Shown here: one piece after another, positions 46,613-48,563 of the stretch
Layout of the letters: the number at the start of each line of letters is the position of its first letter
Numbering within the stretch: position 1 is the stretch's first letter
NCBI RefSeq assembly: GCF_004791025.1
Contig: NZ_SRUO01000003.1
Span: 372,001-436,000, forward strand
Source: Mesorhizobium sp. M4B.F.Ca.ET.203.01.1.1
GTDB taxonomy: Bacteria > Pseudomonadota > Alphaproteobacteria > Rhizobiales > Rhizobiaceae
Length of the DNA stretch: 64,000 nucleotides
Direction of reading: 5' to 3'
Made by a program: the position numbers and the translations under genes
Notes under the pieces: model-generated
Database searches by the model: none
What the model saw: the letters and a program-made list of their open reading frames with translations, nothing else
What the model was told of the DNA's origin: nothing

Positions 46613-46714
46613 TGCAGGCAAGTCACGCCCCTTAAGTTTACCCTAAATTAACCACGACAAAGCGAAGATACCTTTGCATTAAGTCGGACCAGCCGGCTTG
46701 ATAGGAGGGTCTCG

Positions 46715-47185
46715 ATGAAGTTCTTTCGCGCCGTCATCGGTGCGGCACTGCTGGTCGCCTGTATCGACCAGACCGCATCGGCCGCCACCGGAAACGTGTT
46801 GTTCAACGGCACGATCACCGCGACCTGCACGATCACGATCAATTCCAACGGCACGATGACCGTCAGCACCAACCTTCAGTCGCTGAGCTCCCACAATGCC
46901 GGCGGTTCAGCCGGCAGCGCCCAGGTCGACACCACGGGCGGCGTCACGCTCAGCGTCGACCCGGTTACGACCACCACCGTGCCGGCCTCGGATGTCACGG
47001 CCACCACATGGACCCCGACCTTCGCCACCTCCGGCGCGCAGACGATTGCCGAAACCGGAACGGCGACCGCGCTGACGGTACCCGGCACATCGACGGTCGC
47101 CGTCAACCTTGCTGGCACCAAGGGCGGCTCAAACCGCTTCTCCGCCGGCAACTACCAGGCGACCGTGACATTGCGCTGCGAATAG
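46715..47185 (+). CDS. exported fimbrial-subunit-like protein (spore-coat U-like)
   Basis: A 156-residue secreted beta-protein. Signal peptide MKFFRAVIGAALLVACIDQTASA; mature part rich in threonine, serine and glycine. It has a front motif TATCTITINSNGTM and an end motif GNYQATVTLRCE. The two cysteines would form one disulfide. This layout recalls the spore-coat-U/fimbrial subunit fold, in which the C-terminal strand ends near a final Cys. The fourth gene of the cluster shares both motifs. The ATG has TAGGAGG. No lipobox or sortase signal. Confidence 0.7.
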   Translation: MKFFRAVIGAALLVACIDQTASAATGNVLFNGTITATCTITINSNGTMTVSTNLQSLSSHNAGGSAGSAQVDTTGGVTLSVDPVTTTTVPASDVTATTWTPTFATSGAQTIAETGTATALTVPGTSTVAVNLAGTKGGSNRFSAGNYQATVTLRCE

Positions 47186-47207
47186 CCTCTCGCGAAAGGA
47201 GCGATCT

Positions 47208-47600
47208 TTGAGAAAGATTGGAACTCTGGCGGCGGCGTTGGCCGCCGTGCTGTCTCCCATCGCCGCGACGGGCCAGTCGATGACGCCGATGCGCGGCGAG
47301 GTGAGGTCGTTCACCGATGCCTTCGCCGTCCGGGTCTTCCCGGGCAACCCGTATGACCAGCGCATTCGCGTCGAGGTTCATGTCTACGACCAGGATTTCC
47401 AGCCGGTCGCCGCCAGGATCACGCCGAGCGCCTTCCTTTTGGCCGGCCAGGCATCGCGTCCGGTCCTGGTGGTCGTGCCGTTCGACGGCGCAACCGAGCG
47501 TAAAGTGCGTATCTGTACCGAGAGTATCCCCTTTCCAAGCGAGCAGACGCAGATAAGGGCACAGATATGCGGAAAGTTCTTCGGACATCGCAGGTCCTGA
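47208..47600 (+). CDS. exported PapD-like chaperone-type domain protein
   Basis: A 130-residue exported protein. The TTG start (LRKIGTLAAALAAVLSPIAA as written) has AAAGGAG at the right distance. After the signal it reads RSFTDAFAVRVFPGNPYDQR, EVHVYDQDFQPVAARITPSA, FLLAGQASRPVLVVVPF. That is the strand pattern of the N-terminal Ig domain of pilus chaperones (TPS-F-L-x-G-x-x-R). Only one domain is present, and the last 25 residues are unlike the family. Two cysteines occur near the end (RICTES and AQICGK). It overlaps the third gene by 34 bases. Confidence 0.6.
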   Translation: MRKIGTLAAALAAVLSPIAATGQSMTPMRGEVRSFTDAFAVRVFPGNPYDQRIRVEVHVYDQDFQPVAARITPSAFLLAGQASRPVLVVVPFDGATERKVRICTESIPFPSEQTQIRAQICGKFFGHRRS

Positions 47601-48106
47601 CCCTTGCCTTGCTGCCCGCCTTGGCGGTCGTGAGTCAGGGGTTTGCCGAGGACATACTGAACCTGAACCAGAACCAGACGGGCTTCACCCTGCCCGGCGT
47701 CACTCTGCCCCAGGGCCAGGACGAGGTTCACGCTTCCGACGGCACCACCTGCCGCTCTTCGGTTTCCGGCAGCGGCGCCTATCTCGATGTCGGCGTCATC
47801 AGAGGCAACAACAGCAGCCAGTCGAACAGCGACCTCGCCACCTATGGCCGCGTGGTGGTGCCGATCGGGCGGACGCCGAAGCGCGTCGATTGTAGCCGCC
47901 TCTACGAGCTCGAGGTCGAGCGCCTGCAACTGGAGCTTAAGCTGCTCAAGATGGGCCTCGGCACCGACGGCCAGACGACGGCAAGCGTGCCTGCCGCCCC
48001 TCCGACGGCCGCTCGCGCTCCCGCGGCCGCATCGGCCGGATGGGCCAACGAAGGCTGGAGCATCAGAGGGACAAACGGCGATGGCAGGAAAAGGAAGAAG
48101 AAATAG
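47567..48106 (+). CDS. exported protein of unknown function with coiled-coil region
   Basis: A 179-residue protein with a signal peptide (MRKVLRTSQVLTLALLPALA, cleavage after GFA). The mature start is rich in N, Q and G (LNQNQTGFTLPGVTLPQGQD). A conserved-looking core, TTCRSSVSGSGAYLDVGVIR and GRVVVPIG, ends RVDCSRLYELEVERLQLELK, a probable short coiled coil. Its two cysteines could pair. The C-terminal 45 residues are alanine/proline-rich, ending in KRKKK. No named family. It overlaps its neighbours in frame-shifted fashion, which suggests one translation unit. Confidence 0.65.
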   Translation: MRKVLRTSQVLTLALLPALAVVSQGFAEDILNLNQNQTGFTLPGVTLPQGQDEVHASDGTTCRSSVSGSGAYLDVGVIRGNNSSQSNSDLATYGRVVVPIGRTPKRVDCSRLYELEVERLQLELKLLKMGLGTDGQTTASVPAAPPTAARAPAAASAGWANEGWSIRGTNGDGRKRKKK

Positions 48107-48563
48107 CCGCGCCCTGCTGGCGATGGCAGCACTTGCCGGCCTCTGCCTTCCGACCCAGGCGGCGGTCGTTGGCACCTGCACGATTGTGATCGGCGCCTCC
48201 GGAACGATGAAGCCGAATCCCGCCATCAACATCTTCGGCTCCAAGCAGGCGGGCGGGTCGAGCGCCGGCGCCACCATCACCGCAAGCTCGCTGCTGTGCA
48301 CGATCCTCAACCTGATCGACTGCTTTTCTGTTTCGGCGCCGGCGCCGATCGCCTTCACCTCCGCTCCAAGCGGTGGCGACACCAACGTCACTTTCGCCAC
48401 GGTCTTCCGTCTCGACGGCTCGGGCACGGATATTCCCGGCAGTTCGCCGCAGCGTGTAATCAACGGCACCCACACCATGCAGGTCGACCTCACCGCCACC
48501 AAATCGCCGGGCATCTTTCCCGCCGGCAGCTACCAGGGCACGGTCACCGTGCGCTGCGAATGA
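48081..48563 (+). CDS. exported fimbrial-subunit-like protein, relative of the first gene in the cluster
   Basis: A 160-residue exported protein with a signal peptide (about MAGKGRRNSRALLAMAALAG, cleavage after QAA). It begins GTCTIVIGASGTMKPNPAIN and ends GSYQGTVTVRCE, the same motifs as the first gene (TCTITINSNGTM and NYQATVTLRCE). The middle has two extra cysteines (LLCTILNLIDCF). It looks like a diverged copy of the same fold with an additional disulfide. Its start overlaps the previous gene by 26 bases. Confidence 0.7.
   Translation: MAGKGRRNSRALLAMAALAGLCLPTQAAVVGTCTIVIGASGTMKPNPAINIFGSKQAGGSSAGATITASSLLCTILNLIDCFSVSAPAPIAFTSAPSGGDTNVTFATVFRLDGSGTDIPGSSPQRVINGTHTMQVDLTATKSPGIFPAGSYQGTVTVRCE

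Follow-up and report, generated by a model that had tools for sequence, protein, structure and literature searches.

A conserved module of a single-domain chaperone, pilin-like subunits and a third exported protein in Mesorhizobium, vibrios and phages: a candidate usherless system for donor-strand fibres

A stretch of 64,000 nucleotides from Mesorhizobium sp. M4B.F.Ca.ET.203.01.1.1 (contig NZ_SRUO01000003.1, positions 372,001 to 436,000; hereafter the window) carries, at 46715-48563, four genes for exported proteins, arranged in the order 1-2-3-4 and all called as open reading frames (ORFs) on the plus strand. The conserved unit consists of three of them, encoding a pilin-like subunit (S), a one-domain chaperone (C) and a third exported protein (G3); gene 4 encodes an additional, optional subunit. 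We regard the chances as evenly balanced that S-C-G3 represents an usherless system in which a chaperone assembles fibres by donor-strand complementation. Its parts resemble those of the chaperone-usher pathway, yet two features that define the latter, the usher and the two-domain chaperone, are missing. According to textbook accounts, donor-strand fibres depend on an usher, a pore in the outer membrane that exchanges the chaperone for the strand of a neighbouring subunit. If the proposed interpretation is true, either a small protein, G3, can replace the usher or such polymers can work within the envelope.

Organization of the operon

The features of the locus are as follows (window coordinates).

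46637..46651, plus strand: CtrA-type site TTTA-N7-TTAA, with one mismatch relative to TTAA-N7-TTAA, 78 base pairs (bp) upstream of gene 1
46715-47185, plus strand: gene 1, ATG start, 156 amino acids; exported pilin-like subunit S, whose N-terminal extension resembles a donor strand and whose penultimate residue is Cys
47208-47600, plus strand: gene 2, TTG start, 130 amino acids; exported one-domain PapD/Caf1M-like chaperone C
47567-48106, plus strand: gene 3 (G3), 179 amino acids; exported, with two conserved Cys
48081-48563, plus strand: gene 4, 160 amino acids; second subunit of the gene 1 family, without the donor-strand-like extension and with two additional Cys

Genes 1 and 2 are separated by 22 bp, genes 2 and 3 overlap by 34 bp and genes 3 and 4 by 26 bp. 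The ORFs and their spacing, together with signal peptides assigned by eye, bear out the initial annotation, made from the sequence of the window, which described an exported four-gene set whose members overlap or nearly touch. The 34-bp overlap was seen again in 30 of the 38 rows compared (two rows stand for one place, and two outliers stem from a wrong start choice or a duplicated set). Genes 1 and 4 also share motifs near the start (CTITINSNGTM and CTIVIGASGTM) and at the C-terminus (YQATVTLRCE and YQGTVTVRCE), just as had been noticed initially, and in phmmer searches of a database of ORFs from 23 loci they retrieve each other at ~1e-10. Judging from these matches the two genes are homologous, their likeness being beyond chance. 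Gene 3 contains a Leu/Glu/Arg-rich stretch that looks helical by eye.

Gene 2 encodes a one-domain chaperone

Structures were predicted for genes 1 and 2. The AlphaFold2 model of gene 2, based on 34 sequences, has a mean pLDDT of 85.1 (residues 1-9 are below 50) and forms a seven-strand Ig domain with no second domain; the aligned members of the C family are similar in length. Foldseek retrieved 42 PDB chains at E <= 0.001, and rows 1-22 were all fimbrial chaperones, with DraB as the top match (2.8e-5) and with Caf1M, SafB, PapD and FimC also present; the first non-chaperone row was an MSP domain. When superimposed with VIA-align on SafB and Caf1M, the model gave a Z-score of 10.7 and a root-mean-square deviation of 2.5-2.6 over 102 residues. 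These matches support the prediction that gene 2 corresponds to one domain of a PapD/Caf1M-type chaperone, with the fold of the N-terminal domain, and in this respect the initial annotation appears to have been right. The profile of that domain, PF00345 (PapD_N), had no match in the genome carrying the window at the sensitivity of Pfam.

In mature numbering, which starts at Q23, the end offsets of the VIA superpositions equate residues 4 and 108 of gene 2 with residues 5 and 119 of PapD (1pdk) and 17 and 146 of Caf1M (4b0m). If the ends align ungapped, R7 and K101 of gene 2 fall on R8/K112 of PapD and R20/K139 of Caf1M, residues described as binding, or sitting at the site of, the C-terminal carboxylate of the subunit (PMC4654587, PMC4133393). 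The FimC sequence of E. coli K-12 likewise carries R8 and K112. Among the 34 aligned relatives of gene 2, position 7 is R in 33 and K in one, and position 101 is K in 32 and R in two. Since both classical anchor residues are located in domain 1 of the chaperone (PMC4654587), a chaperone consisting of this domain is physically sensible.

Two further residues, C81 and C99, lie on strands F and G, where they would form a disulphide; they are invariant in all 34 sequences and in all 15 rows of the wide alignment. A disulphide between F1 and G1 is given as a feature of FGL chaperones, whose F1-G1 loop averages 24 residues versus 13 in the FGS branch (Table 2 of PMC4133393). In the gene 2 model, strand F extends to residue 84 and strand G begins at 96, and the loop of ~11 residues is short and FGS-like. 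C is a mosaic that combines a classical anchor, an FGL-type Cys pair and an FGS-type loop and lacks a second domain.

Genes 1 and 4 encode pilin-like subunits

The AlphaFold2 model of gene 1 (33 sequences) has a pLDDT of 94.9, falling to 73 for the first ten residues; this N-terminus, modelled without a strand, is its least certain part. All 20 top Foldseek rows were subunits of chaperone-usher pili. The initial annotation had called genes 1 and 4 fimbria-like: their mutual relationship and the likeness of the gene 1 model to pilus subunits both hold, the likeness itself being weak (best E 5.5e-3, VIA Z <= 6.5).

The distribution of a donor-like motif points in the same direction. Ahead of the first Cys, 78 of the 79 subunits whose genes precede C have the pattern [VI]xFx[GA]x[VI]; of the 81 whose genes follow C, 4 have it, or 18 if the pattern is relaxed. 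These counts come from related, and hence not independent, sequences. For comparison, 4 of 17 E. coli K-12 pilins fit the strict and 12 the looser pattern. Among 21 diverse S proteins the motif was found in 13, compared with 6.6% in shuffled sequences, using a looser regular expression that was written after the sequences had been seen. At the other end of the protein, most rhizobial subunits terminate in C-E, the chain ending just past a conserved Cys, and the distance between the last Cys and the end is 1 to 3 residues in 18 of the 21 diverse S proteins. A chain end immediately after the Cys is what one would predict for a carboxylate gripped by the chaperone, and the last Cys would pair with a Cys of strand A. 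Taken together, the positional bias of the motif and the nature of the chain end fit the logic of donor-strand exchange, as far as can be read from the sequences.

Distribution in rhizobia

Genes 1-4 were found in identical order in all 23 loci compared, one of which is that of the window; a further locus, L024, is interrupted by the end of its contig and was left out of this comparison. Gene 2 is present in 23 of 36 genomes of the same genus, as well as in the genome carrying the window, and had no match in the 24 genomes that represented other families of the order; the nearest named relatives belong to Mesorhizobium. The corresponding figures for gene 3, own genome included in each, are 16 of 121 genomes in the family search, 6 of 297 at the level of the order, 2 of 337 at the level of the class and 2 of 385 with a wider profile. 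A narrow gene 2 profile recovered the own genome alone among the 337 of the class, though a chaperone-type ORF adjoins G3 in another genome (G669).

In the 15 family loci with flanking sequence, gene types 1, 2 and 3 are always adjacent. Two of these loci have no additional subunit gene behind the trio, nine have one, three have two and one has a second set; in the last (L053, 7653-10343) the entire module is tandemly duplicated (S-C-G3-S-C-G3). In a named collection, comprising the best 80 of 120 relatives, 78 rhizobial-group loci have S, C and G3 as a group, seven of which list an extra C that is apparently an overlapping ORF, and the remaining two loci are interrupted by contig ends. The carriers include Mesorhizobium, Aminobacter, Aureimonas, Fulvimarina, Nitratireductor and other Rhizobiaceae and relatives. 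Mesorhizobium sp. B2-1-8 has a copy on a plasmid, where all four genes are annotated as coding for hypothetical proteins.

It is because 78 of the 80 loci hold S, C and G3 while the number of extra subunits varies that we define the unit as three genes. The four-gene set envisaged in the initial annotation is thus kept together as a group, and the comparison of loci narrows its constant part to S-C-G3, with gene 4 as one of the 0 to 2 further subunits found in the rhizobial-group loci that were read.

The module in phages, vibrios and plasmids

The module proved to be common in tailed phages. Homologues of G3 were sought by tblastn in 50,697 phage records; the match sets obtained with different G3 queries overlap and were not merged. 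A distant G3 query matched 180 records, all of them Vibrio phages, and the G3 of Vibrio phage Bennett matched 192 (181 Vibrio, 6 Klebsiella, 3 Erwinia, 1 Stenotrophomonas and 1 Raoultella), while a query from a Klebsiella jumbo phage matched 24. Among 72,556 plasmid records the G3 queries yielded 3, 3 and 4 matches. Single-protein queries of IMG/VR gave 4, 0, 3 and 0 loci, and a search of the same database with alignment A6 gave zero matches. At the level of the phylum, G3 is encoded in 10 of 369 genomes; besides the own genome and four of the same genus, this leaves five, all of which (5/5) have all three genes.

Profiles built solely from alphaproteobacterial rows (rhizobial group and others) recognized all three proteins of phage Bennett among 429 ORFs, S at 3.9e-18, C at 5e-5 and G3 at 6e-23. 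With the same type of profile, free of phage rows, G3 passed a cut-off of 1e-3 in nine of nine phage and plasmid loci, which establishes the homology of G3 between bacteria and phages. Wider profiles (E <= 0.01, 1005 ORFs) were applied to 23 phage, viral-contig, Vibrio-replicon and distant bacterial loci, and in all 23 they located S, C and G3 as a group on the same strand. Twelve of these loci had themselves contributed to the profiles, and four more (L196-L199) are near-copies of contributing loci. The other seven (L200-L206) belong to neither category, although two of them, L201 and L202, hardly differ from each other and L203 closely resembles L194.

Two gene orders were encountered. The order S-C-G3 is found in the T5-like (Demerecviridae) phages and the 59-85 kb Vibrio phages that were read, and in alphaproteobacteria; C-G3-S is found in jumbo phages, an Erwinia phage and most vibrio-type loci. 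In the records read the genes are annotated as 'hypothetical protein', with the exception of one 'coil containing protein', one unlisted chaperone gene and one unannotated stretch. In PHROGs the Bennett proteins are split over phrog_25895 (S), phrog_25455 (C) and phrog_37374 (G3), all of unknown function; these hold Vibrio phage members, but as separate unnamed families. Gene 3 of the window matches phrog_37374 at 7.1e-13, and genes 1, 2 and 4 gave zero matches to the three families. Searches of the open-licence PMC literature showed no description of the S-C-G3 module, which does not prove its absence.

In wide alignments S, C and G3 each hold one invariant Cys pair. At one locus (L218, 5212-6329, genome G1018) all three proteins lack the conserved pairs, and the C ORF is only 81 amino acids long with no clear signal peptide; the joint loss fits a joint function, decay being possible too.

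The surroundings of the module differ among the phages. In Bennett it comes after tail-region genes and directly precedes a lipoprotein-like gene, a holin and an endolysin, in pVp-1 it precedes a putative holin and a peptidase, and in jumbo phage D479 it lies beside rIIA/rIIB. The Klebsiella and Erwinia phage records read have no annotated lysis gene beside the module, most neighbours being hypothetical. The small lipoprotein-like gene that follows G3 in Bennett is gp151; for gp149 and gp150 of this phage (L188, 5630-6330) there are in-frame starts upstream of the annotated ones, and with these C and G3 gain clear signal peptides. On a Vibrio nigripulchritudo plasmid (L187, 7544-7945 and 8332-9054) the (incomplete) gene table of the plasmid omits the chaperone gene, S and C are separated by an additional exported ORF, and the end of G3 is shared with an EAL-domain gene, which hints at a link to c-di-GMP in that operon. 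Two vibrio-type operons (L191, 7006-7416; L217, 4898-5311) contain an extra exported-looking hypothetical protein between two subunit genes.

A CtrA-type site upstream of the operon

The sequence upstream of gene 1 resembles the consensus given for the cell-cycle regulator CtrA, TTAA-N7-TTAA (PMC9437464). In a set of 55 loci, nearly all from Mesorhizobium (L064-L118), such a site with at most one mismatch is present in 53, 27 of them exact; in other upstream regions of the same contigs it was found with at most one mismatch in 23 of 1008 and exactly in 5 of 1008. An exact site is also present in 11 of 25 further loci (L119-L143). These loci are related and the counts hence not independent. The site recurs in Aminobacter, Nitratireductor and some other rhizobial loci, and none was found in five Aureimonas loci or in the Fulvimarina locus. 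Its position is mostly -68 to -79, and about 77 bp upstream in most Mesorhizobium loci, while the spacers vary between genera, some starts being unrefined. The operon of Mesorhizobium is probably under the control of CtrA, to judge from this conserved site.

Usher genes

The usher profile PF00577 has no match in the genome carrying the window, which is 100% complete; a very divergent usher could escape the Pfam profile. At that sensitivity the remark in the initial annotation that there is no usher gene is confirmed for the genome as a whole. Among 54 genomes tested, PF00577 was detected in 9 of 41 that bear the module and in 2 of 13 that do not, module status being taken from gene 2 or gene 3 search matches; none of 13 phage and plasmid records has it. 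By eye, no outer-membrane channel was recognized among the gene families common to the flanks of 28 diverse loci, where there was only housekeeping synteny. Most of the 11 usher loci read were Csu-type clusters equipped with a two-domain chaperone and pilins of their own. A separate archaic Csu-type cluster of pilin, chaperone, usher and tip protein (L167-L177) is present in some other genomes of Mesorhizobium and its relatives.

These results bear on the possibility that S-C-G3 is an ordinary chaperone-usher pilus whose usher is encoded at another site, as the initial annotation had allowed. The chaperone and subunits do resemble chaperone-usher parts and nine module-bearing genomes do have an usher. 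However, PF00577 is missing from the own genome and from 32 of the 41 module-bearing genomes, occurs in module-negative relatives and sits mostly in clusters that have a chaperone and pilins of their own, and is missing from all 13 phage and plasmid records. We consider this explanation largely refuted and hardly credible.

Proposed mechanism

According to the model that we propose, S, C and G3 would be exported to the periplasm by Sec. There C would lend its G1 strand to newly secreted S, R7 and K101 gripping the C-terminal carboxylate of the subunit and the F1-G1 disulphide stapling the chaperone. A subunit with an N-terminal donor strand (gene 1) would then displace the chaperone strand in an adjacent subunit, leading to a polymer, and subunits devoid of a donor strand (gene 4) would only accept a strand and hence begin or terminate the chain. 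In place of an usher, G3, through its coupling to C, would hold the fibre in the envelope or organise it there. Direct structural support for this scheme is confined to the predicted fold of C and its residues.

The role may depend on the carrier: phages may use the module to remodel the envelope of the infected cell, and in rhizobia it may serve a CtrA-linked surface function. A broader version holds that S-C-G3 is a further, usherless route to donor-strand fibres of Gram-negative envelopes for which a half-chaperone and G3 are the whole machinery, with tailed phages of several lineages remodelling the surface of infected cells and alphaproteobacteria and vibrios employing a (cell-cycle-regulated) surface or anti-phage structure; this we put forward tentatively, as possible rather than probable. 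The model offers testable hypotheses for three phage protein families of unknown function and for rhizobial operons annotated as hypothetical.

Evidence against the model and alternative explanations

A number of observations weigh against a donor-strand fibre. The fold match of gene 1 is weak, with zero Foldseek matches under 1e-3 and with unrelated beta-sandwiches among the VIA rows. When S was compared by hhalign with 17 E. coli K-12 pilins, the score of 79% obtained with signal peptides dropped to 0.9% without them, and the scores against archaic pilins were 7% and 2%, respectively; because of this collapse, no sequence homology between S and pilins is claimed. The donor-like motif is missing in 8 of the 21 diverse S proteins. 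For gene 2, hhalign against chaperone profiles was weak throughout (0.6-23%), non-chaperone rows reach a VIA Z of 9.2, and a subunit-free Caf1M row (4ay0_B) has a different end offset, equating residue 108 with 129. The anchor, moreover, fades with distance, position 7 being R or K in 13 of 15 rows of wider alignment A7 and position 101 basic in 9 of 15 rows of wide alignment A9, which includes phage members. In the nine phage and plasmid loci, profiles free of phage rows passed 1e-3 for S in three and for C in five; the others were assigned by position and by profiles containing phage rows, and in the most distant phages position is part of the basis for calling S and C homologous. Searches of Pfam, NCBIfam and PDB sequences with single proteins and alignments, not every protein being run against every library, gave nothing significant. 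Finally, no known route would take S across the outer membrane.

In the light of these points S and C might be viewed as ordinary Ig-like exported proteins that look like chaperone-usher components through convergence on a common fold. Such a view would account for the weak matches of S, for its near-zero hhalign scores once signal peptides are removed, and for the matches of C to MSP domains and the Z-scores reached by unrelated domains. It is nevertheless very improbable, given that the best rows for C are chaperones (Z up to 10.7), that C has the anchor residues and the F1-G1 Cys pair, and that the matches of S are all pilus subunits through row 20.

Two other explanations were considered. 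C could be a dedicated folding chaperone for S, with S and G3 forming a small periplasmic or secreted heteromer, that is, a soluble complex of the envelope. The absence of PF00577 from the own genome and the 13 phage and plasmid records and of a recognizable channel gene from the common flanks of the 28 loci would be in keeping with this, as would the presence of a single S in some loci and of a G3 that accompanies C and has a Cys pair of its own. Yet a donor-like extension on nearly all subunits before C, and rarely on those after it, looks like the logic of a chain, and several loci have two or three S genes; we regard a soluble complex as rather unlikely. Alternatively, the module might be a phage-type envelope device, acting in superinfection exclusion, receptor masking or assistance of lysis, which bacteria adopted for phage defence or surface protection. 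This idea, which we likewise rate as unlikely, is favoured by the occurrence of G3 in phage records (192, and 24 with the second query, in overlapping sets) and by the lysis-type or rIIA/rIIB neighbours in Bennett, pVp-1 and D479, but not by the Klebsiella and Erwinia records, where no lysis gene is annotated next to the module. Furthermore, about 9 of the 28 loci have the same housekeeping surroundings, and most Mesorhizobium loci have the CtrA-type site, which points to host physiology. The proposal is about purpose more than mechanism and is compatible with an usherless fibre.

Comparison with known systems

The closest parallels are with the FGL branch of the classical chaperone-usher pathway (Caf1M/Caf1, DraB, SafB), which shares with S-C-G3 the fold of chaperone domain 1, the two basic anchors, the F1-G1 Cys pair, pilin-like subunits and an exported operon. 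S-C-G3 differs from this branch in having no usher and no second chaperone domain, in its short F1-G1 loop (~11), in subunits that end in Cys, in its constant partner G3 and in its occurrence in phages. Archaic pili (CsuA/B, CsuC) are similar in their small exported subunits and Ig-fold chaperone, whereas the usher and tip protein are missing from the S-C-G3 operon. Archaic chaperones are described as anchoring the subunit through an Arg of strand F and residues of domain 2 (PMC4654587), an arrangement that the one-domain C cannot reproduce in full. The fimbrial Pfam families PF00419, PF05229 and PF00345 were not among the profile matches above the cut-off, and a link to curli through CsgH was dropped, one member of 31 having matched with an E of 0.2.

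A 376-amino-acid ORF on the minus strand of the window (47384-48514) runs antisense across genes 2-4 and is probably a shadow of the high GC content.

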